NCBI RefSeq assembly: GCF_013155465.1
Contig: NZ_JABJVX010000002.1
Span: 62,001-126,000, forward strand
Length of the DNA stretch: 64,000 bases
Direction of reading: 5' to 3'
DNA from: Alterinioella nitratireducens
GTDB lineage: Bacteria > Pseudomonadota > Alphaproteobacteria > Rhodobacterales > Rhodobacteraceae
Below, piece by piece: positions 26,643 to 43,657 of the stretch (position 1 is its first letter; each line of letters begins with the position of its first letter). The position numbers and the translations under genes were made by a program. The notes beneath the pieces were generated by a model, which was given only the letters and a program-made list of their open reading frames with translations, was not told the DNA's origin and made no database searches.

Positions 26643-27818
26643 TCAGTTGCGGATCGGCACGTCCATGTCGCCCGCTTCGATCTCGCGCACCAGGACCGGC
26701 ACGCCCCAATCGACGCCGTCCTGCACCTCGATGCGGAAGTGATACATGGATTGCATCGCCTGGTGATCCTCGGGGCGGAAGGTCATCGGGCCCTTGGGGG
26801 TTTCCCAGGTCATGCCTTCCATCGCCGCGATCAGCGCCTCGGTATCCTCATACGTGCCCGCGGCCTCGATCGCCTCGACGATGGCGATGCCCGCGGCCAT
26901 GCCGCCCGCGGTGAAGAAATCGGGCGGGGTGCCGAAGCGTTCGAAATGCGTCTCGACCAGCCAGTCATTCACCTCGTTTTGCGGGATCTCGTAATAATAG
27001 TAGGTCGCGCCCTCCAGCCCCGGCAGGTCGCGATACGCCACCAGCGCGGGCAGGATGTTGCCGCCGGTGGCGATCTCGACCCCGAAGCGCGAGGGGTCCA
27101 TGGCGTTCAAGGCGCCCATCGGGTTGCCGCCGCCCGCCCAGATGATGAAGAGCACGCGGCGTTCGGCCTCGACATCCGCCATGGCCTGGAAGATGCGTTC
27201 GGCGGCGGCGGTGAAATCGGTGGTGTCGGTCGGCACAAACTCCTGGTGCACGATCTCGGCCCCGGTGCCCTCCAGCGCCTCGGCAAAGGCCGAAACGCCG
27301 TCGCGGCCAAAGGCGTAGTCCTGCGCCAGCGTGGCGATGGCGACGCCCTCTTCGCCCAGGGCGATGGCGTTGGAAATGGCGTCCTGCGAGGAGTTCCGCG
27401 AGGTGCGGAAGATATAGCGGTTCCAGTTCGCGCCGGTGATCGAATCGGCGACCGCCGGTTCCACGATCAGGATCTGTTCGTATTCCTCGGCCACGGGCAG
27501 CATGGCCAGCGCCACGCCAGAAGACACCGGGCCGACCGCGATATGCACCTCGTCATCGCCATAGGCCTCGGCCAGCAACGCGCGAGCGCGGGCGGGGTCA
27601 AGCTGCGTGTCGTATTCCAGCACGCTGATCGGCTCGCCGTTCACCTCCATCGTGCCGCCGGTGGCATATTCCAGCCCCAGCATCAGCCCGGTGTGGCTTT
27701 GGGCGGCATAGGCCTCCAGCGCGCCGGTCTGGCCGTAGATATGGCCGATGCGGATCTCGGCGGCGAGCGGAGTCGCCACGACCGAGGCCAGCAGCGCGGC
27801 CGAAAATGTCCGTTTCAT
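26643..27818 (-). CDS. HAAT-type ABC transporter substrate-binding protein
   Basis: The 391-residue periplasmic protein starts with a Sec signal (MKRTFSAALLASVVATPLAA). The Leu/Ile/Val-binding (type I) fold follows: IRIGHIYGQTGALEAYAAQSH, EEYEQILIVEPAVADSITG and TLAQDYAFGRDGV. The ligand is not predictable; the island around it suggests a small acid, amide or amine. The likely TetR operator lies 43 bp upstream of the ATG at 27818, and the gene is divergent from the Rieske operon. Confidence 0.9.
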   Translation of the reverse strand: MKRTFSAALLASVVATPLAAEIRIGHIYGQTGALEAYAAQSHTGLMLGLEYATGGTMEVNGEPISVLEYDTQLDPARARALLAEAYGDDEVHIAVGPVSSGVALAMLPVAEEYEQILIVEPAVADSITGANWNRYIFRTSRNSSQDAISNAIALGEEGVAIATLAQDYAFGRDGVSAFAEALEGTGAEIVHQEFVPTDTTDFTAAAERIFQAMADVEAERRVLFIIWAGGGNPMGALNAMDPSRFGVEIATGGNILPALVAYRDLPGLEGATYYYYEIPQNEVNDWLVETHFERFGTPPDFFTAGGMAAGIAIVEAIEAAGTYEDTEALIAAMEGMTWETPKGPMTFRPEDHQAMQSMYHFRIEVQDGVDWGVPVLVREIEAGDMDVPIRN

Positions 27819-27860
27819 GTCTTGAGTTCCTCTCCCTTGGGTCTCCTCCACGTTTATGAA

Positions 27861-27880
27861 ACATGAATCATTATTCATGT
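27861..27880. promoter_or_regulatory. Second copy of the 20-bp palindrome, probable TetR operator
   Basis: The sequence ACATGAATCATTATTCATGT matches the site before tetR at all positions except one in the 4-bp centre. The shared block extends a few bases further (ATGAA before it in both). It lies between the binding-protein gene and the Rieske gene, so it may control either or both. Confidence 0.75.
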
Positions 27881-27975: not shown

Positions 27976-28356
27976 ATGACATCGCATCCCGAAACGCAAA
28001 CCGTCCGCTGGACCCGGATCGCCAGCAGCTCTGAACTGGACACGGGCCGCGCGGTGATGCCGGTGACGCTGGCGGGGCAGCGCTATGTGCTTTTCCGCGA
28101 CGATGAGGGCCAGCTTGGCCTAATCGGGCGCAACTGCCCGCATCGCGGTGCCGATCTGTGTTTCGGGCGGCTCGAGGATAACGGCTTGCGCTGTCCGTTC
28201 CATGGCTGGCATTTTGATCGCACCGGGCAATGTGTCGAACAGCCTGCGGAACCCGAGGGCTCGACCATGCACACCCAGATCAAGGTGCCGATGGTGCCGG
28301 TGCGCGAAGAGGGCGGCGTCATTTTCGCCCAGGTCTCGGAAGGGGAACGCAGATGA
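27976..28356 (+). CDS. Stand-alone oxygenase-type Rieske [2Fe-2S] protein
   Basis: The 126-residue protein is a complete Rieske domain. Cluster ligands are Cys54 and His56 (CPHRG) and Cys73 and His76 (CPFHGW), spaced as in ring-hydroxylating oxygenase alpha subunits. The flanks (GRLEDNGLRCPFHGWHFD, GQCVEQPAEP) match the phthalate-dioxygenase class rather than small ferredoxins. It overlaps the next gene by ATGA. That gene is an oxygenase catalytic subunit lacking its own Rieske loop, so the two very probably assemble into one enzyme. No reductase gene is nearby. Confidence 0.88.
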   Translation: MTSHPETQTVRWTRIASSSELDTGRAVMPVTLAGQRYVLFRDDEGQLGLIGRNCPHRGADLCFGRLEDNGLRCPFHGWHFDRTGQCVEQPAEPEGSTMHTQIKVPMVPVREEGGVIFAQVSEGERR

Positions 28357-29573
28357 TCAGCCAGGAGCTTAACGACCAGATCACCCGGATCGGCCCGGAA
28401 ACGCAGGCGGGCGCGGTGCTGCGGCGCTATTGGCAGCCCGCCGCGCTGAGCGACGAGGTGCAGGGCGATGTCCCGGTGCCGGTGAACCTGATGGGCGAAC
28501 GGCTGGCGCTGATCCGCGAGGGCGACGGCCTGCTGCTGATCACGCGGCAGGCCGACCCGTCCGAGGCCCCGACGCACCACCCAGCCAGCGGCGACATCCG
28601 CGAGGTCCAGGGCGGCCCGCGCTACCCGGCGGTAGACCGCGCGGGTGTGGTCTTTGCCTATCTCGGACCCGGTGACCCACCGGCTTTCCCGAATTTCGAC
28701 TGTTTCCGCGCACCCGAGGATCACGTCTTCGCCTTCAAGGGGCTGTGGCAATGCAACTGGCTGCAGGCGCTGGAAATCGGGATCGACCCGGCGCATGCCT
28801 CCTACCTGCACCGGTTCCTGGAGGATGCCGACCCCGAAGAGGGATACGGCCAGCAGTTCCGCGACAAGGCGGCCCATACCGACATGCCGATGACGCAGGT
28901 TCTGCGCGAATACCCGCGCCCCGACATCCAGGTCGATGAGACGGAATACGGCCTCAGGATCACCGCGCTGCGCCACATGGCGAACGACCTGACCCATGTG
29001 CGCGTGACCAACCAGATCTTCCCCGAGGCGATCTGCATCCCGATGTCGCGCGAGATGACGATCACGCAATGGCATGTGCCGGTCGATGACGAGAATTGTT
29101 ATTGGTACACCGTCTTCACCAGCTTCAAGAATCCCGTCAACAAGGAGGTGATGCGCGCGCAGCGCCTGAAGGAACACCGCCTGCCGGATTATGCGCCCTT
29201 GAAGAACCGCGAGAACAACTACCACTACGACCCGGCGGAGCAGGAGCGGCTGACCTATACCGGCATGGGGCTGGACATCAACGTGCATGACCAATGGGCA
29301 GTGGAAGGCATGGGCGCGATCCAGGACCGCACGCAGGAACACCTGGGCCGCAGCGACGTGGCGATCATCCGGTATCGCCGGATGCTGCGGCAGGCGATCA
29401 AGGCGGTTGAGGAGGGCGACGAGGGTGCTTTGCCGATGCGCGGCGATGACGTGACGCGCCTGGTCGGGCCGCTGTCGAACGATTCCATCGCCGGGACGCA
29501 GGACTGGAAATCAGCCAGCCGCGCGGCCGATCTGGCGCGTCGGGCAGAGTGCCCCTGGGACGCCACGGTCTGA
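28353..29573 (+). CDS. Rieske oxygenase catalytic subunit without a Rieske cluster
   Basis: The 406-residue protein matches phthalate-dioxygenase-type alpha subunits at both ends: RIGPETQAGAVLRRYWQP near the start, and NWLQALEIGIDPAHASYLH with iron ligands His148 and His153 (Asp145 bridge). It also has DQWAVEGMGAIQDRTQEHLG at about 313-332. The part that normally carries the Rieske cysteines, between about residues 64 and 91, is replaced by 27 residues with no Cys. The cluster is presumably supplied by the preceding gene. It likely oxygenates an aromatic or N-containing ring, or demethylates. The substrate is unknown. Confidence 0.88.
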   Translation: MISQELNDQITRIGPETQAGAVLRRYWQPAALSDEVQGDVPVPVNLMGERLALIREGDGLLLITRQADPSEAPTHHPASGDIREVQGGPRYPAVDRAGVVFAYLGPGDPPAFPNFDCFRAPEDHVFAFKGLWQCNWLQALEIGIDPAHASYLHRFLEDADPEEGYGQQFRDKAAHTDMPMTQVLREYPRPDIQVDETEYGLRITALRHMANDLTHVRVTNQIFPEAICIPMSREMTITQWHVPVDDENCYWYTVFTSFKNPVNKEVMRAQRLKEHRLPDYAPLKNRENNYHYDPAEQERLTYTGMGLDINVHDQWAVEGMGAIQDRTQEHLGRSDVAIIRYRRMLRQAIKAVEEGDEGALPMRGDDVTRLVGPLSNDSIAGTQDWKSASRAADLARRAECPWDATV

Positions 29574-29582
29574 GGGGCTGTT

Positions 29583-31034
29583 ATGGGTTCGGATGATTTC
29601 ACGGCGGCCCTGACCCGCGCGGGCCGCTACGATGGGGCCGCGATTGCGGCGGCTGAGGCGTTGCTGGCCAAGGTCGAGGAGACCGGCCTGGAGACCATCC
29701 GCATGGTCTTTGCCGACCAGCACGGCATCCTGCGCGGCAAGATGATTGTTGCCCGCGCGCTGGCCTCGGCCTTCACTTCCGGCATCGGCGTGCCCTCGAC
29801 GCTGCTTCTGAAAGACACCTCGCACCGCACCGTGTTCCCGGTCTGGAGCGCGGGTGTCTCGGTCGCCGATCAGCCCTTTGGCGGCGCGGGCGACGTGATC
29901 TTGTGGCCGGACCCGGCGCGCTTCTTTCCGCTGCCCTGGTCGCCACATTCGGCGATCCTGCTCTGCGATGTCTGCCAACGGTCGGGCGCGCCGGTCTCGT
30001 TTTCCTCGGGCGCGGTTCTGGCCGATGCCGTGGGCAAGCTGGAGGGCGCAGGGTATCGCGCGCTTTTCGGGTTGGAGGTGGAGTTCCAGGTGTTCGAGCG
30101 GCTGGACCCCGCGCTGACCCATGCGCAGGCCACCATGCCCGGTGCGCCGGTTCAGACGCGCAACCTGACGCAGGGCTACCAATACCTGACCGAGACCCGA
30201 TATGCCGAGGTCGAGGGGCTGCTGGATCATCTGCGGCGGATGGCCGAGGGGCTTGGGCTGCGCCCCCGCTCGATGGAGATCGAGATGGGGCCGAGCCAGT
30301 TCGAGTTCACCTTCGACCCGTCGGACCCGCAGGTGCAGGCGGATCGCTTCGTCCTCTTCCGCACCATGGTGAAGGAGGTCTGTCACACACGCGGGCTGCA
30401 TGCCAGTTTCATGGCCAAGCCGAACCTGCCCAATGCCGCCGCGAATGGCTGGCATATTCATCAATCCTTGCAGGACGCGCGGACCGGCAGGCCGCTGTTC
30501 CGGCCCGAGGCAGATGGCGCGCTGACGCAAGCTGCCAGCGGCTGGATCGCGGGGCTGTTGAAACACGCCGCCGCGTCCTGCCTGCTGACCAACCCGACGG
30601 TGAACGGCTACAAGCGCTTCGCGCCGTTCCAGCTGGCCCCCAACTCGGTGCAATGGGGCGCGGATAACCGGGGCGCGATGCTGCGCGCGCTGCTGGCCCC
30701 CGGCGATGATGCCTCACGCGTGGAAAACCGTGTCGCCGATACCACCGCCAACCCGCATTACGCCTTTGCCGCGCAGATCCTCTCAGGGCTCTCGGGGATC
30801 GAGGCGGGTGAGCCCGCGCCCCGCCCGAGCGAGACGCCCTATACCGAGGCCGGCACCCCCCTGCCCCGCAGTCTGATCGCGGCGGTCGAGGCGTTCGAGG
30901 GATCGGCGTTCTACCGCAAGGCGCTTGGCGAGGGTGTGGTCGATTACCTCGTGACGCTGAAACGCGCGGAATGGGATCGCTACCTGATGACCGTCTCGGA
31001 CTGGGAGCATCAGGAATATTTCGGGCTGTTCTGA
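29583..31034 (+). CDS. Glutamine-synthetase-like ligase (gamma-glutamylation of an amine)
   Basis: The 483-residue protein keeps the GS catalytic set: GLEVEFQVF, SMEIEMGPSQFEFTF, AKPN and NGWHIHQSL, NGYKRFAP, and RVENRVADTTANPHYA. It belongs with PuuA-like or aniline-type GS homologues, not the housekeeping GlnA. These activate glutamate with ATP and couple it to an amine. It starts 9 bp after the oxygenase gene. This parallels the aniline pathway, where a GS-like enzyme makes gamma-glutamylanilide for a dioxygenase. The amine here is unknown. Confidence 0.85.
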   Translation: MGSDDFTAALTRAGRYDGAAIAAAEALLAKVEETGLETIRMVFADQHGILRGKMIVARALASAFTSGIGVPSTLLLKDTSHRTVFPVWSAGVSVADQPFGGAGDVILWPDPARFFPLPWSPHSAILLCDVCQRSGAPVSFSSGAVLADAVGKLEGAGYRALFGLEVEFQVFERLDPALTHAQATMPGAPVQTRNLTQGYQYLTETRYAEVEGLLDHLRRMAEGLGLRPRSMEIEMGPSQFEFTFDPSDPQVQADRFVLFRTMVKEVCHTRGLHASFMAKPNLPNAAANGWHIHQSLQDARTGRPLFRPEADGALTQAASGWIAGLLKHAAASCLLTNPTVNGYKRFAPFQLAPNSVQWGADNRGAMLRALLAPGDDASRVENRVADTTANPHYAFAAQILSGLSGIEAGEPAPRPSETPYTEAGTPLPRSLIAAVEAFEGSAFYRKALGEGVVDYLVTLKRAEWDRYLMTVSDWEHQEYFGLF

Positions 31035-31037
31035 GCC

Positions 31038-31622
31038 ATGCCCCTAACCGACACCCGCATCTTCGAGGACACGATCGACGGCTATTTCCCGCTGCGCGTG
31101 TCGCTGGCGCAGATGATGGCCCGAAACGGGTTCGACGCGGCGCTGGTCTCGCTGACGCAGGCGCCGGTCGCGGCGTTTCCGGGCCTGCCCGAGGACGCGC
31201 CCGTGCCGCTGACCATCCGCGCGGGGCGGGCGGGGTTGATTGATTGGTCGGCCCTCTGGCTCTGGCACGATGGCGAGGGGATGCGATTGCGTGCAAGAGG
31301 CCAATGGCGCTGGCTGGCGGGTGTATCGGATGGCGCAAGGCTGGACCCGATGACGCGGCTGGCGGAACCGGCGTTCCTGCACGGCATCGGCTGGCCGGGG
31401 GCGGAGGACGGAGCCTGCAAACCGGCCGAGGTTGATTTGACGGCGGGCGCGGAGGCGGGATCAGGGGCGGCGCTCTGGGGGCCTTTGCCCGAGGCGGAGG
31501 GGATCGTTTGGGCGGATCGGCCCGCTGTCTTCGGGGCGCGCGTGGCCCCTATGCCGGGGCGCTATCTGGTCACCACAAGCCGTGTCGCCCCGATCGGCGG
31601 CGCGGACACCGCGATCTCCTGA
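31038..31622 (+). CDS. Unrecognised protein ending the oxygenase operon
   Basis: The 194-residue product begins MPLTDTRIFEDTIDGYFPLR and has no signal peptide or membrane segment. It is rich in Trp and Gly in its middle part (LIDWSALWLWHDGEGMRLR). No family is recognised. The gap of 3 bp after the GS-like gene argues for cotranscription and a role in the same pathway. Its last 61 bases overlap the converging lysR gene tail to tail. Open frame, codon use and position support a real gene. Confidence 0.6.
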   Translation: MPLTDTRIFEDTIDGYFPLRVSLAQMMARNGFDAALVSLTQAPVAAFPGLPEDAPVPLTIRAGRAGLIDWSALWLWHDGEGMRLRARGQWRWLAGVSDGARLDPMTRLAEPAFLHGIGWPGAEDGACKPAEVDLTAGAEAGSGAALWGPLPEAEGIVWADRPAVFGARVAPMPGRYLVTTSRVAPIGGADTAIS

Positions 31623-32443
31623 AAGGCGCGCGCGGCGGGAGACACCGCATGGTCGCGGCGCAGGTAGATCATGAACTCCTGCGTGACGGCGGGATCGGGG
31701 AAATCGTGGAACGCGATGTCGAACTGCTCCGCGAAACCGGCGGCATAGGAGGGCGCGGCGGTCACGTAGCGCCCGCGCCCGATCATCGCCAACGCCGGGA
31801 TCAGGCTGCGCACCCGGATCGCGCTGCCCGCCGCCTCGTGCAACTGGTGGGCCTGTTCCAGCAGGACGCGGAATTCGTCGGAATAGTGGATCCACTGCCG
31901 CCCTTCCTGCCCTGTGCCCTGCCCGCGCGGCGTCACCAGCCGGATCGGCACCCGCCAGAGCGGGAGTGAGACGACATCGGGCCCATGGCTGCGCGCGGGA
32001 CCGATGCCGATTTCGGCCTCGTCGCGCGCGATGGCCTGCACGATCCGGTCGCCGGTGATGTCGGCGATCTCCAGCGCGACGCCGGGATGGTCGTGGCTGA
32101 ACCGGTCTAGGACACCCGGCAACCATGTCGCCGCCAGAACCTGCGTCAGCGCCAGCCGCAAGGTGCCCCGGCTGAGCGCCCTGAGCCCCTGCGCCGCGTC
32201 CTGCACGCCCTCCAGATCGGCCATGACGCGGGCAAAGACCGGGCGGGCCTGGTCGCCGAACTCGGTCAGCATCACGCCGCGCCCGGTGCGGATGAACAAT
32301 TCAAGCCCGAGGATCTCCTCCAACTGCCGCACCAGCATGCTGACCGCCGATTGCGTCAGGTTCAGCCGCTCGGCCGCCGTGGTGAAGCCTTGGGTTTCGG
32401 CAACGGCGGCGAAGGCGCGAATCTGGCGCAGGGTGATCTTCAT
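31562..32443 (-). CDS. LysR-family transcriptional regulator
   Basis: The 293-residue regulator has an N-terminal winged helix (LRQIRAFAAVAETQGFTTAA and LNLTQSAVSMLVRQLEEILG, residues 5-45) and a substrate-binding effector domain. It is divergent from the hydantoinase genes and converges on the oxygenase operon, so either could be its target. LysR proteins usually control the divergent promoter, which points to the hydantoinase operon. The tail overlaps the neighbouring gene by 61 bases. Confidence 0.9.
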   Translation of the reverse strand: MKITLRQIRAFAAVAETQGFTTAAERLNLTQSAVSMLVRQLEEILGLELFIRTGRGVMLTEFGDQARPVFARVMADLEGVQDAAQGLRALSRGTLRLALTQVLAATWLPGVLDRFSHDHPGVALEIADITGDRIVQAIARDEAEIGIGPARSHGPDVVSLPLWRVPIRLVTPRGQGTGQEGRQWIHYSDEFRVLLEQAHQLHEAAGSAIRVRSLIPALAMIGRGRYVTAAPSYAAGFAEQFDIAFHDFPDPAVTQEFMIYLRRDHAVSPAARAFQEIAVSAPPIGATRLVVTR

Positions 32444-32536
32444 CAGATTTTCTTATGCAGAGGTGAGGTATATTCGTTTGCATTTTGACAGGCGGGACCG
32501 AACAATCAAGCCATCCGAGAAGAGGCAAGGGATGGC

Positions 32537-32650
32537 ATGCGCGCCGGGACCGATCCGCCACCGATCCTGTTGACCGCCGCGCCGCTGTTGTTTCGCGGCC
32601 GGGGCACGCGGGATACCGCATCGCGGCCCGTGCGGATCGAGGTCGCATGA
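32537..32650 (+). CDS. Possible 37-residue leader protein before hyuA
   Basis: An ATG at 32537, preceded by a purine-rich AGAGGCAAGGG, opens a frame of 37 codons (MRAGTDPPPILLTAAPLLFR at the start). It ends in TGA overlapping the hyuA ATG (ATGA). The overlap is the same style as the other coupled genes here. No homologue is recognised; it may be a translational leader or a remnant. Confidence 0.35.
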   Translation: MRAGTDPPPILLTAAPLLFRGRGTRDTASRPVRIEVA

Positions 32651-34281
32651 CGCGGCTCGGTGTGGATGTCGGCGCGCGGTTCATCGACATGCTGGCCTGG
32701 GGGGATGGCGGCGTGATCGGTCACGCCAAGGAGCCGGTGGGCGGCGATCTGTCCGAGGATGTGGTGGCGGGGCTGCGGGGCCTGGGTATCGCGCCGGGGG
32801 CGCTTGCCGAAATTCGCATCGCCTCGACCGGGTTTCTCAATTGCCTGCATGACGCGCAGGGTGGCGGCCTGCCGCAGATCGGGCTGATCGCCAGTGCCGG
32901 GTTCGAGGATGTCGCCGTTTTGGGCCGGCAGGACCGCCTGTCGCTCTACGATCCGGTGACGCGGGTGGCCACGCCCGAGCACCTCATCGACTGTGTCGAG
33001 GGGGTTTCGGCCCGGATGGATGCCGGGGGAGGAGAGATCTCGCCGGTCGATCAAGGCCAGGTCGCGCGGATCGCCGAGGGCTTCGCGGCGCGGGGGATCA
33101 CGGCGGTGGCGGTCTGCCTGCTGCATGCCCATGTCGATGGCCGCCATGAGCGCGCCGTGGCCGAGGCGCTGAGCGCGGCGGCCCCCGGCCTGACCGTCAG
33201 CCTGTCGCACCGGATCGACCCTGAGCCGCGCGAGTTCGAACGCACGGTCTCGACCGTTCTGGACGCCTGGCTGCGGATCACGGCATTGCCCGCGCTGGAC
33301 GCGCTTCGGGCGCGGCTGCGGGGGGCGGGGTTTGCGGGCCGATGGGTCTGGGGCGACGGGCGCGGCGTGTTGACGGCGGCGCCAACGTCGCTGGTGCCGC
33401 TGATCGCGGGCGGGCCTGCGGCGTCGCTCCGGGCGGCGGCGCTGGCGGCGGAGGGTGACGCGGTCGCGCTCGATATCGGGTCACGCACCACCGACATCGC
33501 GCTGGTGCGCGGCGGTGCCCCTGCCCTGACCGAAGGGGGCGTGTTGGCGGGGCTGCCGATCCGGGGGGGCCGCGTCGATCTGGAAAGCCTTGCGATCGGC
33601 GGCGCGCAAACCGTGGCCGGGTCACGCCACACGCTGGATGACGCGCTGATCGCGGCCGGGTTGATGCCGGGGCAGAGCGATTGTCCGACCTCGGAGGCGG
33701 CACAGCTGCTTGGCGTGGCGTCTCAGGCGCTGGCCGAGGCGATCACCCGTCACGCCACCCGTCGCAATACCGACCCGACCCGCGCGGGCCTGGTGCTGAC
33801 AGGCGGGGCCGGGGCGCTGATGGGGCCAGGGATCGCCGAGGCGCTTGGGCTGGATCACGTGCTGCTGCCGCATCTGCCCGCCATCGCCGGGGCGGTGGGG
33901 CTGGCGCAGGCCCCGAGGCGCAGCGAGACGATCACCCGGATCGACGCGGCGCTGGACAACGTGACGGCAGACATGCTGACAGCAAAGGGCGAAGGCACCG
34001 TCCACGCCCGCATCGCGCCGCGCCCAAGGATGCCGGAGCTTGAGGTGGCCGTCGACCCCGAACGGCTTGATGGGCTGGCCGTCGCGTATCACGCCGCCTA
34101 TCGCGCCCGCTATGCGATCGCGCCGCAGGGGCCGGGGCATGTGACGCAGCTTTGCACGCGGGCGGACGACCTGACCGGCGCGTTGGCGCGGGATATGGGC
34201 GAAGGCGAGGTGGCCGCCCCGAAAGGTTGGCGCGCAGTCGCTATCCCCGGCGGCACGCGGCTGGAAAGGGTAGGCGGATGA
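32647..34281 (+). CDS. hyuA: Hydantoinase/oxoprolinase family protein, A subunit
   Basis: The 544-residue protein has the actin-like ATPase features of HyuA: LGVDVGARFIDMLAW at the start and VALDIGSRTTDIALV around residues 275-290, with VLTGGAGALMGPGIAEALG later. HyuA/HyuB pairs hydrolyse five-membered rings such as N-methylhydantoin or 5-oxoproline, usually with ATP. It is clearly shorter than the usual near-700 residues. The ATG at 32647 gives the standard N-terminus. It overlaps hyuB by ATGA. Confidence 0.85.
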   Translation: MTRLGVDVGARFIDMLAWGDGGVIGHAKEPVGGDLSEDVVAGLRGLGIAPGALAEIRIASTGFLNCLHDAQGGGLPQIGLIASAGFEDVAVLGRQDRLSLYDPVTRVATPEHLIDCVEGVSARMDAGGGEISPVDQGQVARIAEGFAARGITAVAVCLLHAHVDGRHERAVAEALSAAAPGLTVSLSHRIDPEPREFERTVSTVLDAWLRITALPALDALRARLRGAGFAGRWVWGDGRGVLTAAPTSLVPLIAGGPAASLRAAALAAEGDAVALDIGSRTTDIALVRGGAPALTEGGVLAGLPIRGGRVDLESLAIGGAQTVAGSRHTLDDALIAAGLMPGQSDCPTSEAAQLLGVASQALAEAITRHATRRNTDPTRAGLVLTGGAGALMGPGIAEALGLDHVLLPHLPAIAGAVGLAQAPRRSETITRIDAALDNVTADMLTAKGEGTVHARIAPRPRMPELEVAVDPERLDGLAVAYHAAYRARYAIAPQGPGHVTQLCTRADDLTGALARDMGEGEVAAPKGWRAVAIPGGTRLERVGG

Positions 34282-35837
34282 CGCAGGCGGGCCGGATCTT
34301 GCAGATGCGGCTGGATGGGCTGGCCGAGGCCATGCAGCGGATGCTGCTGGACACGGCGGTCTCTCCGGTCGCGCGGGAGGCGGCGGATTGTGCCTCGGCG
34401 CTGTTCACCGCGGGCGGCGAGTTGCTGGCGATGTCGGAGGCTATCCCGCTGCTTCTGGGCGCGCTGCCGGGACAGGTTCAGGCGCTCTTTGCGCGTTACC
34501 CGGCGGAGGGGATGTGCGAGGGCGATCTCTTCCTGGCCAACGATCCCTATTCGGGCGGCACGCATCTGCCCGATATCGCGGTGATGCTGCCGGTCTTTGC
34601 GCAAGGGCGACTGATCGGTGTCGCGGCCAGCCTGCTGCACCATCAGGATATCGGCGGCACACGCCCCGGATCGGTGCCGCCCGATGCGACCGAGATCGCG
34701 CAGGAGGGGCTGCGCCTGCCGGTGATGCGGGCGGGCGCGGACCATCGCCTGTCCGAGGAAATGCGCGGGCTGATCGCGGCCAACAGCCGGGTGCCGCAGA
34801 CGGTGCTGGCCGATCTGGACGCGCAGATCGCCGCAAGCCTGACGGCGGTGAGGGGACTACGGCGGATCGTGGGTGACCTCGGCGTGGATGGGTTTCTTCA
34901 CGCGGCGGGCGAGTTGCTGGACAGAGGCGAGGCCGAAACGCTGGCCGCGCTCGCACGGCTGGCAAGGGCCGAGGCCCGCGCGACGGATGGGCTGGACCCC
35001 GACGCGGCGCTTGGCACCTCAAGCGTGTCGGTGCGCCTGACGGTGACGCCCAAGGGGCTGAGTGCCGATTTCACCGGATCCTCGCCGCAGGTTCCCGCGC
35101 CGATCAACTGCGTCGCGTCGGGGCCGCTTTCCGCCCTGCTCTATGCGATGCTGACGCTGCTGCCAGAGGGTGCCCCGCGCAATGGCGGCTTGTTGCGTTG
35201 CCTGCGCCTGGTCCTGCCCGAGGCGAGCGTGGTAAACGCCGCGCCGCCCGCCCCGGTCAACGCGCGCACCAACATGGTCCGGGCGATCACCTCGACCGTG
35301 CTGGCGGCATTGGCGGGCATGGACCCCAAGCGCCGTCCGGCGGCCAATTGCGGCATGGCCTATGTGATCGCGTTTTCGGGACAGGGGCCGGATGGCGCGC
35401 GGTTCCTGGCGACCGAGATCGTCGCGGGCGGGGCGGGCGGCGGCCCGGACGCACCCGGCGCGCATGGCACCTCGACCGATGTGGGCAATGCGCGCAACAC
35501 GCCGGTGGAGATCATCGAGGCGGAGCTGCCGATCCGCATGATCAGCGCCGAGCGGCGGCGCGGCTCGGGCGGGGCGGGGCGCTTTCCCGGCGGCGACGGG
35601 GTGCGGCGGGTCTATGAGGCGCTGTCGGACGGCATCGCGGTCTCGGTCCGGGGCGAGCGGTTCCAGCGGGTGCCGGAAGGGTCCGCGGGGGGCAGGGCGC
35701 CGAAACCGGCGGCGGCGCAGATCCGGCGCGCGGGCGGCGCGGTCGAGATCCTGGGCCCGCGTTCGGCGGTGGTGCTGGACCGGGGCGACCGACTGATCGT
35801 GGAAAGCTGTGGCGGGGCGGGGTATGGCGCCGCCTGA
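34278..35837 (+). CDS. hyuB: Hydantoinase/oxoprolinase family protein, B subunit
   Basis: The 519-residue protein has HyuB hallmarks: FLANDPYSGGTHLPDIAVMLPVF, LLHHQDIGGTRPGSVPPDATEI and TSTDVGNARNTPVEIIEAELP. The end shows RRGSGGAGRFPGGDGVRR. It works with the A subunit in ATP-dependent opening of a hydantoin-like or oxoproline-like ring. It starts inside the hyuA stop. It faces the converging iclR gene across 4 bp. Confidence 0.9.
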   Translation: MTQAGRILQMRLDGLAEAMQRMLLDTAVSPVAREAADCASALFTAGGELLAMSEAIPLLLGALPGQVQALFARYPAEGMCEGDLFLANDPYSGGTHLPDIAVMLPVFAQGRLIGVAASLLHHQDIGGTRPGSVPPDATEIAQEGLRLPVMRAGADHRLSEEMRGLIAANSRVPQTVLADLDAQIAASLTAVRGLRRIVGDLGVDGFLHAAGELLDRGEAETLAALARLARAEARATDGLDPDAALGTSSVSVRLTVTPKGLSADFTGSSPQVPAPINCVASGPLSALLYAMLTLLPEGAPRNGGLLRCLRLVLPEASVVNAAPPAPVNARTNMVRAITSTVLAALAGMDPKRRPAANCGMAYVIAFSGQGPDGARFLATEIVAGGAGGGPDAPGAHGTSTDVGNARNTPVEIIEAELPIRMISAERRRGSGGAGRFPGGDGVRRVYEALSDGIAVSVRGERFQRVPEGSAGGRAPKPAAAQIRRAGGAVEILGPRSAVVLDRGDRLIVESCGGAGYGAA

Positions 35838-35841
35838 CGGA

Positions 35842-36603
35842 TCAGCGCGTGGTGCCGATGTCGATGGCGCATTGGCGCATCTCGTCGATGATCGGCTGCG
35901 GCGTCTGGTCAGGGGTGTAGCGCCCGGTCGGAAACAGCATCGAGATCGCCCCCGTGACCTGCCGCGCGGCGGAAAAGACCGGCACGGCAATCGAGGTCAC
36001 GCCGGTCACCAGCCCGGAATCGAGAAAGGCGAAACCGCGCTGGCGGGTGCTGTCCAGCGAGGGCGCAAGCGCGTCGGCATCGCAGCCCTCGGGCCAGTCG
36101 GCGGGGTCCAGATGCGCCAGGATCGCGTGGCCCGTCGCGGTGCGGTCCAGTGGCACATGGGTGCCGACCGAGATCATGTTCAGCGTGAACTGGCCGGGCA
36201 GATAGGCATGGGCGACATAGATTGCCTCGGGCCCATCCCTGAGCGCAAAGGAGATGTTCTCGCCGATCTTGGCGGCGGATTTGCGCAGGATCGGCTGGAT
36301 CACCTGCGCGATGCCGTGACCGTCGAGAAACCCGCGCGCCAGCCGCATCACGCCGACCGTCATCTCGTAGCGCTGGCCCTTCTCGATCAGCATTCCGTTC
36401 TGCAACAGCGTGCGCACCAACCGGCGGGTGACGGCGGGGTTCAGACCGGCCTTGCGGGCGATCTCGGCGAGGCTCATCAACCGGTCCTTGCCGTCGAAGG
36501 CCTGCATCACCTGCATCCCCTTGCGAAAGGTCAGCGAAATCTCGGAATCCTCGGCGATTCGCTGGCCTGCCTCGGGCGGGGGGGGTGTTGCGGAATTGGT
36601 CAT
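35842..36603 (-). CDS. IclR-family transcriptional regulator
   Basis: The 253-residue protein has an N-terminal winged helix (KGMQVMQAFDGKDRLMSLAE, then AGLNPAVTRRLVRTLLQNG) and the IclR effector domain (YLPGQFTLNMISVGTHVPLDRTATGHAIL). The ATG at 36603 gives MTNSATPPPP; longer frames are not protein-like. It is divergent from the creatininase gene across 130 bp and probably regulates that operon. Its family often responds to aromatic or organic acid intermediates. Confidence 0.88.
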   Translation of the reverse strand: MTNSATPPPPEAGQRIAEDSEISLTFRKGMQVMQAFDGKDRLMSLAEIARKAGLNPAVTRRLVRTLLQNGMLIEKGQRYEMTVGVMRLARGFLDGHGIAQVIQPILRKSAAKIGENISFALRDGPEAIYVAHAYLPGQFTLNMISVGTHVPLDRTATGHAILAHLDPADWPEGCDADALAPSLDSTRQRGFAFLDSGLVTGVTSIAVPVFSAARQVTGAISMLFPTGRYTPDQTPQPIIDEMRQCAIDIGTTR

Positions 36604-36709
36604 TTCGCCCGATCCTTTGCCCGTTTCCTGCGCATTTGCAAGACATTCGAGCCGCCGCGCGCGGGACGGGTTGCCTTGGCGGGCAAGCTGCGCGATGCTG
36701 ATAGCGAAT

Positions 36710-36727
36710 GAAACTTCGATAAACGAA
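36710..36727. promoter_or_regulatory. Possible IclR operator
   Basis: TTCG (36715-36718) and CGAA (36724-36727) flank a 5-bp centre, and a further CGAA lies just before them at about 36705-36708, giving overlapping dyads. The site is within 30 bp of the creatininase ATG, in the region divergent from iclR. The arms are short, so this is only a candidate. Confidence 0.3.
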
Positions 36728-36733
36728 TACTCC

Positions 36734-37510
36734 ATGAGCCTGTATCGCTGGTCCCGCCTACGCAGTTCAGATTTCCCCGCCCCGCCCGACGCGGTCGCGG
36801 TGGTGCCTGTGGGGGCGGTGGAGCAGCACGGGCCGCACCTGCCGCTCGGCACCGACCACCTGCTGGCCGAGGCGCTGGCCGAACGCGGCGCGGCGCAGGC
36901 GCAAACGGCGCGGGTCTACCTGATGCCGACGCTCTCCCTCGGGGTGTCGGAGGAACATCACGACTGGCCCGGAACGCTGACCCTTGAGACGGAACAGATG
37001 ATCGCCGCGCTGATGGCCGTAGCGCGGGGCGTCGCGTCGGCGGGCATCGCCAAACTGGTCTTCATCAACGGCCATGGCGGCAATATCCCGGCGCTGCACA
37101 CCGCCGTGCGCCGCGCGCGGATCAGGCATGACCTCTTCGCCTCGACGCTTGGCTGGATGGCGCTTGGCATCGGCGACCACCCCGAGGGCGCGCGGATCGA
37201 CGACATTCACGGCGGCTTTCTGGAGACGGCGGCGATGCTGCATCTGCACCCCGATCTTGTCGATATGGGAGAGGCCCGCGATTTCGTCTCGACCAACCGG
37301 ACCATGGCCGAGACCTACGCGCATCTGCGGTTCCTCGGCGCGGTCTCGACCGGCTGGACCGCGCGCGACCTGCATGCCGAGGGGGCCGCGGGCAATGCCG
37401 CCGCCGCCAGCGCCGAGGCGGGCAAGGTCATTGTCGAGACCGCCGCCGCGCGGCTTGGCTCGCTGTTCGATGAAATCGCAGCACATCAGCCGGATTGGAG
37501 CGCCCCGTGA
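36734..37510 (+). CDS. Creatininase-family amidohydrolase
   Basis: The 258-residue metalloenzyme has the family motif EQHGPHLPLGTDH (Glu30, His32, His35, Asp41) and NGHGGN (112-117). The later motif, usually HAGExETS, reads HGGFLETA here (159-166). The family includes creatinine amidohydrolase, formamide hydrolases and mycofactocin peptidases, and the altered motif leaves the exact reaction open. A cyclic amide or N-carbamoyl compound fits the neighbours. It overlaps the next gene as GTGA. Confidence 0.82.
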   Translation: MSLYRWSRLRSSDFPAPPDAVAVVPVGAVEQHGPHLPLGTDHLLAEALAERGAAQAQTARVYLMPTLSLGVSEEHHDWPGTLTLETEQMIAALMAVARGVASAGIAKLVFINGHGGNIPALHTAVRRARIRHDLFASTLGWMALGIGDHPEGARIDDIHGGFLETAAMLHLHPDLVDMGEARDFVSTNRTMAETYAHLRFLGAVSTGWTARDLHAEGAAGNAAAASAEAGKVIVETAAARLGSLFDEIAAHQPDWSAP

Positions 37511-38817
37511 GCGCGCCTCTGCCCCTTCCGCAGGCCCCGCAACCCTACATCCTGCACGACATCGCCGTGCCGCAGGCGCTGCTGCGCGACCTGCCCGGTA
37601 TCGCGATGACTGGCGGGATGGAGGGGGGCCTCGTGCGGACCAGCCTGGGGGTTGCCGCCGGTCGCATCTGCGCGCCGGACGAAATCGCGGAGGCGTTGCA
37701 GGTGCCCGCCGGGGGCTGGACCGCGCTGCCGCGCCTCGTTGAACCGCATGTCCACCTCGACAAATCCGACACGATCGCGGAGACCGGCGCGGGTGACGGC
37801 ACCTTGATGGGCGCGATCGGAACCATGGGCGCGGCGATGCGCGATTGGGACGATGCGCATTACGCGGCCCGGATGTCCCGCGCGGTCAAGGAGGCGCTGA
37901 CAGCAGGCGTCGGCGCGATGCGGACCCATATCGACTGCATGGACCTGCCCGAGGAGCAACCGGGCTGGCGCGCGATTTCCGAAGTGGCGGAGACGTTCGC
38001 GGGCCGAATGCAGATCACACCGGTCGCGCTGGCGGCCCTTGACCGAACCAGGGCGGAAAATTTCGACACGCGCTGCGCGCAGGTGGCGCGCGCGGGCGGC
38101 GTATTGGGGGCGTTCATTGGCCCGGACGGGGCCGACCCTGACCTGCTGGATGCGTTCCTGGCGGGGGCAGAACGGCACGGGCTGGACGTGGATTTCCACG
38201 TCGATGAGCATTTGCGCGCAGTGCCCTCGGCCACGGTCGCGCTGGCCGAGGCGGTGTTGCGCACCGGGTTCGCCGGTCGCGTCCTGGCGGGCCATACCTG
38301 CCGGCTCGGGCTGATGAGTGCCGATGAGCTTGACCGCGCGGTGGATGTGATCGCCCGCTCCGGCATCGCTGTGGCGTCACTGCCGCGCACCAACCTCTAC
38401 CTTCAGGACCGTCAGGCGGGGCGCACGCCCACGCGGCGCGGCATGGCGCCGATCCACGAGCTTGCCGCGCGCGGCGTGCCGGTCGTCTTCGGCACCGACA
38501 ATGTGCGCGACGCCTTCTTTCCCTTCGGCGGCTACGACTTGCTGAACCTCTTCGCCGACGCCGCCTATTCGCTGCATCTGGATGACGATCTCGGCGGCTG
38601 GCTCCGCGCCGTTACCGATGTGGCCGCCGACATGCTCGGCCTCGGCGGGGCGGGCAGTGTCCGGGCCGGGGCTGCCGCCGACCTGGTCCTGCTACCGGCC
38701 CGCAACTGGAGCGGCATCCTGACCACCCGGCCCGAGGATCGGACCATCCTGATCGGGGGCCGCGAGAGCGCGCAGAGCACGCTGCGCGACCTGCCCCGCA
38801 AGGAGGCCGCATCATGA
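37507..38817 (+). CDS. Cytosine/creatinine-deaminase-like amidohydrolase (CodA type)
   Basis: The 436-residue metal-dependent amidohydrolase has the metal pair in EPHVHLDKSD (His81, His83), then DFHVDEHL (His230/His234), AGHTCRLG (His262) and GTDNVRDAFFPFGGYD (Asp330). These match the cytosine deaminase subfamily, which also contains creatinine deaminase and isocytosine-type enzymes. The start is GTG at 37507, coupled to the creatininase-family gene. With HyuAB it could turn creatinine into N-methylhydantoin and open the ring; this is inference. Confidence 0.82.
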   Translation: MSAPLPLPQAPQPYILHDIAVPQALLRDLPGIAMTGGMEGGLVRTSLGVAAGRICAPDEIAEALQVPAGGWTALPRLVEPHVHLDKSDTIAETGAGDGTLMGAIGTMGAAMRDWDDAHYAARMSRAVKEALTAGVGAMRTHIDCMDLPEEQPGWRAISEVAETFAGRMQITPVALAALDRTRAENFDTRCAQVARAGGVLGAFIGPDGADPDLLDAFLAGAERHGLDVDFHVDEHLRAVPSATVALAEAVLRTGFAGRVLAGHTCRLGLMSADELDRAVDVIARSGIAVASLPRTNLYLQDRQAGRTPTRRGMAPIHELAARGVPVVFGTDNVRDAFFPFGGYDLLNLFADAAYSLHLDDDLGGWLRAVTDVAADMLGLGGAGSVRAGAAADLVLLPARNWSGILTTRPEDRTILIGGRESAQSTLRDLPRKEAAS

Positions 38818-40211
38818 CCGCGCGGATCCCGGACTGTATCGACGCGCTGACGGCGCAGGGTATCGCGGTCGAGACCGCCGCCGGTCCGATCGAGCGCAAG
38901 AGCCGGGATTTCTATCGGTATTCCCCGATCCTGAAACGGCAACTGGCCGATGTGCGGGCCGATTTTCTGGCCACGCCCGAAAGCGAGGCTGAGCTGCGCG
39001 ACATCCTCGCCACCTGTTTCCGCTTTGACGTGCCGGTGACGGTGCGCGGCGCGGGGACCGGGAATTACGGGCAGGCCATGCCGCTGAAGGGCGGCTGCGT
39101 GTTGCTGACCGAACGGCTGAACCGGATCGAGATCGGCACGGGGCGCGTCATTGCCGGGCCCGGCGCGATCATTGCCGAGATCGAGACCGAGGCGCGCGCG
39201 ACGGGGCAGGAGATCCGCCTCTTTCCCTCGACCGTGGCAACCGCGACCATCGGCGGCTTCATCGCGGGCGGATCCAGCGGGGTGGGCGCGATCCGGTGGG
39301 GCGGCTTGCGCAACCCGGCCAATATCCACCGCCTGCGCATCTTGACCATGGAGGCCGAACCGCAGGTGATCGAGCTGACCGGCGCCGATGTTCACAAGGC
39401 CGCCCATGCCTATGGCGTCAACGGCGTGATCACCGAAGTGGAGCTGCCGATCGACCCTGCGACGGCGTGGCGCGAGGTTCTGGTGGGGCTGCCCGATACG
39501 CAGGCGGCGCTGGCCTTTGCGTTTGCCTGCGGCGACGACCCGGACATCCTGAACCGCATGATCTCGCTTTTCGAGCCCGGCATCGCCGAGGCGTATTTCC
39601 TGCGCCACCGCAAGCTGACCAACCCCGGCGAGGCGCTGGTGGCGGTCTATGTCTCGGCGCAGACCCTGCCGGCGTTCGAGGCGCTGGTGGGAAAAATGGG
39701 CGGAACCGTACGCTACCGCGACGGCGCGCAGGAGGGCCGGTTTCCCGAGCTGTACGAGATCGGCTGGAACCACACCACGCTTCGCGCCCTCAAGGTCGAT
39801 CCCTCCATCACCTACCTGCAAATGATGTTCGGCGAAGATGTCAGCGGCCAGGTCACCGCGATCAAGAACCGCTTCGCCGACGAGGTGATGATCCATATCG
39901 AGTTCACCCGCATCGAAGGAAAGGTCCGCGCCGTCGCCCTGCCCCTGGTCCGCTACACCGACGAGGCGCGGCTGGAGCGGATCGTCACCATCCTGGAGGA
40001 GGAGCTTGGCCTGACCGTCTTCAACCCGCACCGCGTCACGCTGGAGGAAGGCGGTATGAAGGAGACCGACCCCGCGCAGCTGGAATTCAAGCGCCGGACC
40101 GATCCCAAGGGGCTGCTCAACCCCGGCAAGATGATCGCCTGGGACAACCCCGATTGGGTGCCTGAGGCGGGGCGGAGCTATCTTTTCGGCGCGACGGCGG
40201 GTGAGGATTGA
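38814..40211 (+). CDS. FAD-linked oxidase (GlcD/VAO type)
   Basis: The 465-residue flavoprotein has the PCMH FAD-binding domain (PVTVRGAGTGNYGQAMPLKGG at about 74-94, then ATIGGFIAGGSSGVGAIRWG) and the FAD-linked oxidase C-terminal domain ending DPKGLLNPGKMIAW. Relatives oxidise 2-hydroxy acids. It overlaps the deaminase-like gene by ATGA. It may oxidise a hydroxy acid or a ring intermediate produced by the preceding hydrolases. The substrate is unknown. Confidence 0.85.
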   Translation: MTARIPDCIDALTAQGIAVETAAGPIERKSRDFYRYSPILKRQLADVRADFLATPESEAELRDILATCFRFDVPVTVRGAGTGNYGQAMPLKGGCVLLTERLNRIEIGTGRVIAGPGAIIAEIETEARATGQEIRLFPSTVATATIGGFIAGGSSGVGAIRWGGLRNPANIHRLRILTMEAEPQVIELTGADVHKAAHAYGVNGVITEVELPIDPATAWREVLVGLPDTQAALAFAFACGDDPDILNRMISLFEPGIAEAYFLRHRKLTNPGEALVAVYVSAQTLPAFEALVGKMGGTVRYRDGAQEGRFPELYEIGWNHTTLRALKVDPSITYLQMMFGEDVSGQVTAIKNRFADEVMIHIEFTRIEGKVRAVALPLVRYTDEARLERIVTILEEELGLTVFNPHRVTLEEGGMKETDPAQLEFKRRTDPKGLLNPGKMIAWDNPDWVPEAGRSYLFGATAGED

Positions 40212-40214
40212 GCG

Positions 40215-40796
40215 ATGCGTGTCCATGTCATCTATGCCCATCCGCTTGAGACCAGCCTGGCCGCGACACTGCATCAAACCGTCATCGAGAACCTGACCGA
40301 GGCGGGGCACGAGGTCGACGATCTCGACCTCTACAAGGCCGGGTTCGATCCGGTGCTGTCGGCCGAGGGGCGCAGCCTCTACCATGATGTTCCGACCAAC
40401 CGCGCGCCGGTGCAGCCTTACGTCGAGCGCCTGGAAGCCGCCGATGCGCTGGTTTTCTGCCATCCGGTCTGGAATTTCGGTTGGCCCGCCATGCTGAAAG
40501 GGTATATCGACCGCGTCTTCCTGCCCGAGGTGTCCTTCGTGTTCGAGAAAAACCGGCTTGGTCCGGGATTGACCAATATCAGGAAACTGGCGACCGTCAC
40601 GACCTACGGGTCCAAGCGCTGGCGGGCCGCGGTTCTGGGCGATCCGCCCCGCAAGAACGCGACCCGGTTCCTGCGCGCCATCTGTCATCCGCGTGTCAAG
40701 GTGTCCTACCATGCGCTTTACAATATCGACCGCCTGCCCCGGCAAGACGTCGATGCGTTCATCGAGAAGGTCGGCAAATCCATGAGGAAGTTCTGA
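40215..40796 (+). CDS. NAD(P)H-dependent oxidoreductase, flavodoxin-like fold
   Basis: The 193-residue protein has the KefF/MdaB/NQO-type pattern: VHVIYAHPLETSLAATLHQ at the N-terminus, then FCHPVWNFGWPAMLKGYIDR near residues 79-98. It probably reduces quinones or quinone-like ring products with NAD(P)H. It starts 3 bp after the FAD oxidase and ends in the TGATG overlap with the ABC ATPase gene, so it is part of the same operon. Confidence 0.85.
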   Translation: MRVHVIYAHPLETSLAATLHQTVIENLTEAGHEVDDLDLYKAGFDPVLSAEGRSLYHDVPTNRAPVQPYVERLEAADALVFCHPVWNFGWPAMLKGYIDRVFLPEVSFVFEKNRLGPGLTNIRKLATVTTYGSKRWRAAVLGDPPRKNATRFLRAICHPRVKVSYHALYNIDRLPRQDVDAFIEKVGKSMRKF

Positions 40797-41626
40797 TGTT
40801 GAACCAGACGTCTACCGGTTCCGCGCCCGCATACGGGGTCCACCAGATCGCGCATGACCCCGCGACGCGCGCCGACCGCGCGACGGCGGTGGCGTTCGAC
40901 AATCTGTCGATGACCTACCCGGACGGCACCGAGGCGTTGCAGGACATCACCCTGACCATCCGCGAGGGGGAGTTCGTCTCGTTCATCGGGCCGTCGGGCT
41001 GCGGGAAATCCACGCTGGCGCGCATCGCCTCGGGGCTGTTGCAGCATACCGGCGGCACCGTGCGCATCGACCGCGAGCATCTGGCCTTTGTCTTTCAGGA
41101 GGCGACGCTCTTGCCCTGGCGCAAGACCTTGCAGAATGTCGAGCTGATGATGGAGCTGCGCGGCGTGCGCGCGTCCGAACGGCGGCGCAAGGCGCTGGAG
41201 CAGATGGAGGCGGTGGGGCTGAAAGGTTTCGAGGATCGGTTCCCGCGCGCCCTGTCGGGCGGCATGAAGATGCGCGCGTCATTGGCGCGGTCGCTGACGC
41301 TGGACCCCACGGTGTTCCTGTTCGACGAGCCTTTCGGCGCGCTCGATGAGATCACCCGAGAGAGGTTGATCGAAGACCTGTCGGCGCTGCACCGCGAGAA
41401 GGGATTTACCGGCTTTTTCATCACCCATTCGATCCCGGAAGCGGTCTACCTGTCCGACCGCGTCGTGGTGATGAGCGCGCGACCGGGCCGCATCCATGCC
41501 GAATTCGAGGTGAACCTGCCAAGCCCGCGCACCCACGCGATGCGCTTTGAGGCGCCCTTTACCGAGGGCTGCGCGCTGGTATCCGAGTCGCTTCAGGCCA
41601 CCATGCATGACACAGGAGAGGATTGA
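40796..41626 (+). CDS. Nitrate/taurine/sulfonate-type ABC transporter ATPase
   Basis: The 276-residue ATPase has Walker A IGPSGCGKSTL, the Q-loop FVFQEATLLPWRKT, Walker B VFLFDEPFGALDEITRERL and the H-loop FFITHSIPEAVYLSDRV. These belong to the SsuB/TauB/ThiZ class. The signature is LSGGMKMRASLARSL, where most relatives have LSGGMRQRV. It powers the permease and binding protein that follow. Confidence 0.9.
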   Translation: MLNQTSTGSAPAYGVHQIAHDPATRADRATAVAFDNLSMTYPDGTEALQDITLTIREGEFVSFIGPSGCGKSTLARIASGLLQHTGGTVRIDREHLAFVFQEATLLPWRKTLQNVELMMELRGVRASERRRKALEQMEAVGLKGFEDRFPRALSGGMKMRASLARSLTLDPTVFLFDEPFGALDEITRERLIEDLSALHREKGFTGFFITHSIPEAVYLSDRVVVMSARPGRIHAEFEVNLPSPRTHAMRFEAPFTEGCALVSESLQATMHDTGED

Positions 41627-42465: not shown

Positions 42466-42502
42466 ACCTGATCAAAACAACGCCAACAGAGAGGAAACGA
42501 CC

Positions 42503-43651: not shown

Positions 43652-43657
43652 CGCGAT

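Follow-up and report, generated by a model that had tools for sequence, protein, structure and literature searches.

A phthalate dioxygenase-class alpha subunit without a Rieske cluster and its free-standing Rieske partner: anatomy, distribution and origin of a putative split oxygenase

Introduction

The usual alpha subunit of a Rieske non-heme iron oxygenase carries its cluster and its catalytic iron in one chain, an arrangement that hinders the separation of electron delivery from oxygen chemistry. In the 64,000-nucleotide stretch of Alterinioella nitratireducens DNA analyzed here (the window) the cluster-bearing domain and the catalytic domain lie on two adjacent genes. Are these the halves of one enzyme and, if so, how did they come apart and what accompanies them? 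The original prediction, made from the sequence alone, was that the cluster has been lost from the large chain and is supplied by a coupled small protein, the two forming one enzyme with electron transfer across a non-covalent interface. Comparison upholds the loss and supports the single enzyme, the complex and the transfer themselves being inferred. It also amends the reading in three respects: Asp145 is the bridging aspartate and not an iron ligand, the event is one of duplication and complementary loss, and the system is accompanied by a third protein, here called p194, which the original prediction missed. No earlier description of such a split, Rieske-less oxygenase was found in the open-licence literature searched, which does not show its absence from print.

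Results and Discussion

Anatomy of the two proteins

The features under discussion are listed in Table 1. Rieske is the sole Pfam family matched by the small ORF (E 1.9e-21), and its cluster ligands, Cys54, His56, Cys73 and His76, are spaced at intervals of 2, 17 and 3: precisely the spacing of C69, H71, C88 and H91, the Rieske ligands of isophthalate dioxygenase (PMC12445078). All four are invariant in an alignment of 17 small proteins. The match to 7fhr (residues 27-137, E 1.7e-28) covers just the part that is missing from the large protein. The top profile and structure matches of the small protein are Rieske domains of oxygenase subunits; matches to the ferredoxin models AndAb (1.5e-05) and HcaC (4.7e-05) are weak.

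Table 1. Positions of the genes and segments discussed (window coordinates unless a locus is named)
Feature	Position	Strand	Basis or remark
Periplasmic binding protein (Peripla_BP_6) of a divergent branched-chain-amino-acid-type ABC transporter	26643..27866	-	Pfam
Small subunit, free-standing complete Rieske [2Fe-2S] protein, 126 aa	27976..28356	+	Pfam Rieske
Large subunit, cluster-less catalytic alpha subunit, 406 aa	28353..29573	+	Pfam LigXa_C; PDB 9ina, 7fjl
Scar, 25 Cys-free residues (66-90 of large protein)	28548..28622	+	Length comparison and alignment
Glutamine-synthetase-like ligase	29583..31034	+	Pfam Gln-synt_C; best PDB match NpaA1
p194, 194 aa, constant companion of the split form	31038..31622	+	Profile search of loci
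LysR-type regulator, tail-to-tail overlap with p194	31562..32443	-	Pfam
Cindoxin-type flavodoxin and adrenodoxin-reductase-type enzyme	L038:9671-11312	-	Divergent from split oxygenase
Cindoxin-type flavodoxin and adrenodoxin-reductase-type enzyme	L037:9009-10627	-	Divergent from split oxygenase

The large protein is a Rieske non-heme iron oxygenase alpha subunit of the phthalate dioxygenase (LigXa_C) class without a cluster of its own. Residues 103-357 match Pfam LigXa_C above the family cut-off (E 1.3e-32), and isophthalate dioxygenase (9ina) aligns in two stretches, query 3-62 and 90-358 (E 2.8e-46), with the gap between them falling at the position of the Rieske loops. Solved relatives thus match both ends of the Rieske domain as well as the catalytic domain: the rest of the Rieske fold (the base) is kept despite the loss of both cluster loops. 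Counting along the 9ina alignment, with the residues named in PMC12445078 as reference, places D145 at the bridging D174, H148 and H153 at H177 and H182, and D313 at D337. The iron ligands by this mapping are His148, His153 and Asp313, and the bridging aspartate is Asp145; all four residues are invariant in two alignments, one of 10 split proteins and one of 18 split and 10 fused proteins.

A structure model of the large protein (mean pLDDT 80.8, pTM 0.86) superposes on 9ioy with Z 32.6 and rmsd 3.5 over 367 aligned residues. The model is confident at residues 11-130, the Rieske base included (block-mean pLDDT 90-96), and weak near the iron, where pLDDT drops below 50 at 152-158 and at 302-332, the latter stretch containing Asp313. 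The alignment behind the model included fused rows, which may favor a fused-like Rieske base.

What stands in place of the loops is a scar. Counted between the conserved Arg65 and Tyr91, it is 25 residues long in 25 of 27 distinct split proteins and 23 in the other two; its fused counterpart has 54 residues, with both cluster loops present in 71/71. The scar is free of cysteine in the window protein and in 25/27 of the split proteins, those of L045 and L077 being the exceptions. Cluster motifs in the same chain are absent from all 29 split large proteins (27 distinct), and in each case the small protein encoded upstream has them. This anatomy is shown, by computation.

Most of what had been claimed for the pair held: the four cluster ligands of the small protein (by Pfam, spacing and alignment), the ATGA by which the two genes overlap in the window, and the presence in the 406-residue partner of both ends of a phthalate dioxygenase-type alpha subunit, for which the proposed check, alignment with proteins of that class, gave matches on both sides and a gap at the Rieske loops. 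One claim needed correction. The iron site had been given as Asp145, His148 and His153, of which the histidines are ligands, whereas Asp145 is the bridging residue and the third ligand is Asp313. The Cys-free segment replacing the Rieske loop, put at 27 residues, measures 25 as counted here.

Distribution of split and fused forms

A survey of 295 genomes of the same family found a relative of the large protein (E 1e-40) in 37, one each: eight are split, the window's own genome included, and 29 are fused, one of the latter having an internal stop and another needing a longer frame to show its motifs. (The fused relative L015, from genome G219, carries an internal stop codon.) Status was checked locus by locus, and in none of the 295 genomes were both forms found together at this threshold. 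Nor was a fused paralogue detected in the window's genome at E 0.001, or in the other seven split genomes at 1e-40.

For comparison among loci we assembled the window, public genome contigs, five plasmid records (of 107 with a match) and regions from 17 of the 36 other genomes. Because only the 80 top-scoring of at least 578 relatives were kept from the contigs, the proportion of split to fused among them is not a frequency. The resulting 103 loci comprise 29 split and 74 fused ones; with identical proteins removed, 27 and 71 are left. Named hosts of split loci are mostly Roseobacteraceae and Paracoccaceae; two split loci are plasmid-borne (Palleronia and Pseudooceanicola algae) and one (L076) comes from a MAG labelled Granulosicoccaceae. 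Culturable marine strains with the split set include Roseobacter sp. GAI101 (L066) and Thalassovita gelatinovora (L062). Fused relatives, whose identity to the large protein of the window is 55-70% across aligned positions, include L079, L088, a protein from Mameliella and proteins on plasmids of Polaromonas JS666 and Methylobacterium nodulans.

In 29/29 split loci (27 distinct) the small Rieske gene lies directly upstream of the large gene. With start codons chosen by script, the junction is a 4-base overlap in 16 of the 27 and a gap of 8 to 66 bases in the remaining 11. Fusion of the two products by ribosomal frameshifting at ATGA was considered and rejected as a general device, given the 11 loci with gaps.

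It might be argued that the oxygenase encoded here is inactive or in decay, or that the locus reflects a frameshift or an error of assembly: after all, the large protein lacks a part that is essential in its family, and its Rieske stump is divergent. Against this, the frames are open in 27 distinct loci, the catalytic part is conserved as in the fused enzymes (0.79 within split versus 0.77 within fused) and the replacing stretch is of equal length in 25/27. The recurrence of the same arrangement in 27 distinct loci excludes chance and artefact, and with them sequencing error, frameshift and pseudogene; decay of the enzyme is left with next to no support. The same survey satisfies the proposed search for the gene pair in other genomes and disposes of two findings that would have refuted the original prediction. 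The large protein does not align to a family that never has a Rieske domain, since its nearest relatives have one; and a fused orthologue, which might have made this copy an artefact, was found only in other genomes of the 295 surveyed.

Origin of the split

Phylogenies were inferred separately for the catalytic and Rieske parts. In the catalytic-part tree all 27 split proteins group in a single clade inside the fused proteins (support 98); a careful rerun without L060, a long row, gave the clade support of 99/97 and recovered it in 200/200 bootstrap trees. In the Rieske-part tree the 27 small proteins likewise form one clade (99) inside the fused Rieske domains. This second tree rests on 109 columns, is rooted with a single domain from the window's own genome on a very long branch, and includes no ferredoxin. 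The fused L051, L079 and L080 are near neighbors of the split clade in both trees; in the Rieske-part tree the fork joining them has support of 92, which falls below the starred level.

Mean identities, computed with a fused set that omits L039-L041 and L060, show where the two halves have been held constant and where they have drifted. The cluster tip is as conserved within small proteins (0.89) as within fused ones (0.88) and between the two (0.86). The base around it is not: before the tip the corresponding values are 0.55, 0.77 and 0.49, and after it 0.51, 0.68 and 0.40. In the large protein the first part of the base gives 0.61 within split, 0.80 within fused and 0.57 between, and the second part 0.60, 0.76 and 0.58, whereas the active-site part gives 0.85, 0.89 and 0.84. 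The scar is the least constrained segment, at 0.39 within split, 0.73 within fused and only 0.09 from split to fused.

The single origin of the split form and the complementary degeneration of its halves are thus shown by computation. The event behind them is inferred from the comparison of sequences: because the tip is held while the base has drifted in both halves, and because the large chain retains the base of the Rieske fold, we infer duplication followed by complementary loss. One fused ancestral gene, or its first part, would have been duplicated; one copy would have retained the tip without the catalytic domain, the other would have dropped the tip and retained the catalytic domain, and the base, now present twice, would have been relaxed in both. 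The split form is also a clear-cut example of duplication and complementary loss at the level of domains, for which the intact fused sister group is at hand.

An alternative reading takes the small protein for an ordinary Rieske ferredoxin serving other oxygenases, and the large protein for an oxygenase remnant with some other activity or source of electrons. Three-component systems commonly include small Rieske ferredoxins, and the weak matches to AndAb and HcaC could be taken in the same sense. Against this stand the best matches of the small protein, which are to oxygenase-subunit Rieske domains, and its nesting within the fused family (in a tree without ferredoxins); the small gene adjoins the large gene in every split locus; and Asp145 and the cluster tip are held constant. 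We consider this alternative unlikely.

A third protein tracks the split

Every one of the 27 split loci encodes a member of the p194 family, and none of the 71 fused loci does (profile search). Downstream flanks reach at least 2,500 bases in 61 of the 71 fused loci and at least 4,000 in 57, so in some of them a p194 gene at the edge could have escaped notice. No such limit applies to the survey of whole genomes: p194 occurs in eight of the 295 family genomes, exactly the eight that are split. The probability attached to this co-occurrence (8e-16) ignores shared inheritance and, as the genes are inherited together, measures association rather than independent events. Across the class, 385 sparsely drawn genomes yielded p194 only in the window's own. 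Within the loci examined the strict companionship of the genes is shown, by computation.

Gene order reinforces the association. The order small, large, glutamine-synthetase-like (GS-like) gene, p194 holds in 17/27 split loci; in the other ten, where the GS-like gene has a different location, p194 comes straight after the large gene or overlaps it, which ties p194 to the oxygenase rather than to the GS-like gene.

The first ~110 residues of p194 are conserved and its tail is variable. Eighteen members searched against Pfam at E up to 1 gave no match, except one member's chance-level 0.26, and no sequence relative was found in the PDB (best E 0.33). The structure model has a mean pLDDT of 73, with block means of 88-95 over residues 11-120 except for two blocks at 81 and 75. 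A fold search with this model returned seven top rows (Z 7.4-6.4, rmsd 3.5-5.8, 103-116 residues aligned), of which 2dt4 is named PPC and the other six are proteins that we take to be of the PPC/DUF296 family; acetolactate decarboxylases follow at Z 4.9 and below. Values of Z below 8 in this search may reflect no more than a common arrangement, and Foldseek alone gave no match at 0.001 (best 4.0e-03). A PPC/DUF296-like fold is accordingly a possibility predicted by the model.

Membership of PPC/DUF296 by sequence was considered and is not supported, there being no match for the 18 members; comparison by hhalign with a poor three-sequence profile, a weak test, gave a probability of 0.1. The window's genome has no match to PF03479 at E 0.001.

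We lean, by inference, towards p194 being a subunit of the split oxygenase. If its fold is PPC-like, a trimeric oxygenase would be well matched, since PPC proteins are themselves trimers. The alternative, that p194 is no part of the oxygenase and is a pathway enzyme or regulator carried in the operon, remains possible. It draws support from the lack of any Pfam or PDB sequence relative, from the acetolactate decarboxylases (enzymes) that follow the PPC-type rows in the fold search, and from the position of the GS-like gene between the large gene and p194 in 17/27 loci. Against it, p194 tracks the split and not the pathway, being absent from all 71 fused loci even though 68 of them have the GS-like gene, and it stands directly after the large gene in the ten loci where that gene lies elsewhere.

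The GS-like gene and the likely substrate

The GS-like protein is closest in the PDB to NpaA1 (8wwu, E 1.2e-87; next best 3.6e-49), for which structures 8WWU, 8WWV and 8X6Z exist. NpaA1 glutamylates 1-naphthylamine and anilines ahead of a Rieske dioxygenase (PMC11335346). The gene is present in 27/27 split and 68/71 fused loci; two of the three fused loci without it have little flanking sequence, and the third (L051) has ~9 kb on each side. By analogy to NpaA1, the GS-like enzyme probably gamma-glutamylates an amine, the ligation itself being inferred. Since the gene accompanies both forms and is closest to NpaA1, an amine, perhaps aromatic, is the likely substrate of both, an inference that leaves the actual substrate undetermined.

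Electron supply

In six of the 27 split loci (L037, L038, L062, L064, L067 and L069) the oxygenase genes are flanked by divergent genes for a flavodoxin and an adrenodoxin-reductase/FprA-type enzyme; neither occurs in any of the 71 fused loci. All six fall in one clade of eight in the catalytic-part tree. For the P. algae flavodoxin the best match is cindoxin (E 2.3e-23, against 7.3e-15 for the next), and for the reductase beside it adrenodoxin reductase. A flavodoxin-fed Rieske oxygenase would be unusual, and nothing relevant to one was found in the open-licence literature searched, PMC12445004 included. A cindoxin and adrenodoxin-reductase-type chain is known from the cytochrome P450cin system.

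At the level of genomes, a cindoxin-like protein (E up to 1e-20) is found in five of eight split genomes and in nine of the family's 287 others (6e-6 by a Fisher test that takes no account of kinship); four of the nine are genomes with the fused form (G044, G092, G138 and G271). In the window's own genome, as in two other split ones, a search at 1e-20 gave nothing cindoxin-like. The neighborhood of the window's genes yielded no electron donor dedicated to the small protein. The 11 Fer2 matches of this genome, plant-type ferredoxin domains, all lie outside the window. Fused loci have a plant-type ferredoxin match in 8/71 and an adjoining Pyr_redox_2/Reductase_C-type reductase in 6/71; the split locus L069 also matches a reductase of this type.

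A flavodoxin chain was considered for the window as well and rejected, no gene for one having been found: the only Flavodoxin_1 match in the genome, on contig C42, is to a protein we take to be WrbA-like.

Comparison with known systems and a putative mechanism

The closest solved relatives are the isophthalate (9ina, 9ioy) and phthalate (7fjl, 7v25) dioxygenases of Comamonas testosteroni KF1, which share with the large protein their fold, the order of their parts, the iron ligands and the bridging aspartate (Z 32.6 and 31.4), and differ in having the cluster in the catalytic chain. Direct relatives are the fused alpha subunits with a GS-like neighbor (71 loci): one chain with its own cluster, and no p194. 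The AtdA and NpaA systems for aniline and 1-naphthylamine have in common with the present one the glutamylation of an aromatic amine by a GS-like enzyme followed by a Rieske dioxygenase, but use a two-component AtdA3A4/NpaA3A4 oxygenase and have a GAT-like gene (PMC11335346).

A precedent showing that such a separation can work, though with a different architecture, is NdmCDE, the 7-methylxanthine N7-demethylase of Pseudomonas putida CBB5, in which the oxygenase lacks a cluster, the reductase NdmD carries the Rieske domain as a fusion and a GST-like third protein is required (PMC4408171). The logic of a cluster-less oxygenase, a Rieske domain on another polypeptide and an extra structural protein is shared, and it might be supposed that the window encodes a system of the NdmCDE type with its Rieske domain on a reductase. 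This is very unlikely. The small protein is a 126-aa Rieske domain standing alone, unfused to a reductase; it nests, as does its catalytic half, within one fused LigXa_C-class family; and p194, of unnamed family, gave no GST match in Pfam. The sequences of NdmC and NdmD lay outside the comparison.

The reading we prefer is that the small and large proteins act as one oxygenase, to which we assign a probability of roughly 0.78; the complex, its activity and the electron transfer within it are inferred. In the fused isophthalate dioxygenase the cluster and the iron are 12.5 A apart between subunits and 45 A apart within one (PMC12445078), so the covalent link is not what unites them. In this reading the large protein would form, very probably, the head-to-tail trimer of its class, holding the mononuclear iron and retaining its built-in Rieske domain as a cluster-less stump. 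The small protein, a putative duplicate of the ancestral domain, would dock in trans where the tip of the neighboring subunit sits in the fused enzymes, bringing its unchanged cluster tip beside the bridging Asp145 and handing single electrons to the mononuclear iron. Docking cannot simply copy the fused enzyme, as the base retained by the large protein may obstruct that of the small one. As the third subunit p194 would most likely serve as a scaffold or clamp where docking takes place; a role as regulator or second pathway enzyme is possible. The substrate, probably an amine, would first receive a glutamate tag from the adjacent GS-like enzyme.

The ferredoxins of three-component oxygenases are, like the small protein here, small soluble Rieske proteins. 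They reduce a second Rieske cluster, that of the oxygenase. As the large protein has no second cluster, reduction of the mononuclear iron would fall to the small protein. A bolder reading follows these features further, in which duplication and complementary decay of one fused gene gave rise to a three-part oxygenase: ferredoxin and oxygenase cluster would be merged into one mobile carrier, a free and exchangeable Rieske protein that reduces the iron directly; p194, a new subunit with a PPC-like fold, would gate or clamp its docking; and in one sub-lineage a cindoxin-type flavodoxin and an adrenodoxin-reductase-type enzyme would feed the carrier. As a joint claim this falls a little short of what we would back.

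If the two proteins are one enzyme, the split form is a case in which nature has dispensed with the link while preserving the face through which electrons pass. Either half could then be mutated, labelled, exchanged or left out, and the delivery of single electrons, its timing relative to oxygen binding and the role of the bridging aspartate would become directly testable. To this is added an unknown protein, p194, whose presence coincides with the split.

Neighboring genes

Other genes near the oxygenase are less constant. A similar LysR-type gene is present in 8/27 split loci, the window included, and 3/71 fused loci; it possibly regulates the system. Similarly, the Peripla_BP_6 transporter may take up the substrate, a possibility only; with a match in just 2/27 split loci (the window and L048) and 1/71 fused loci, its gene is not a constant part of the system.

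A HyuA/HyuB-like (hydantoinase/oxoprolinase) pair lies at 32485-35837 of the window and also beside the split genes of Pseudooceanicola algae, giving 2/27 split loci (the window included) and 0/71 fused; 5-oxoprolinase activity of this pair would fit recycling of a glutamate tag. Beyond it, 36410-44512 encodes creatininase, amidohydrolase, FAD_binding_4, Flavodoxin_2, permease and FolD-like (THF_DHG_CYH) proteins. On the Nitratireductor OM-1 plasmid the fused system (L039) is likewise located near genes for creatininase, cytosine deaminase and an FAD-binding oxidoreductase, and the two neighborhoods hint at a common pathway for a nitrogen compound.

A small protein of P. algae annotated as 5-carboxymethyl-2-hydroxymuconate isomerase has a match in 8/27 split loci (L037, L038, L047, L062-L064, L067 and L069) and 5/71 fused loci (L058, L099, L117, L123 and L125); such a neighbor suggests an aromatic or muconate-type product. 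Further along the window, at 52125-54152, a single ORF combines a BPD_transp_1 permease with an oligopeptide-type ATPase (ABC_tran and oligo_HPY), an apparent permease-ATPase fusion within an SBP_bac_5 transporter.
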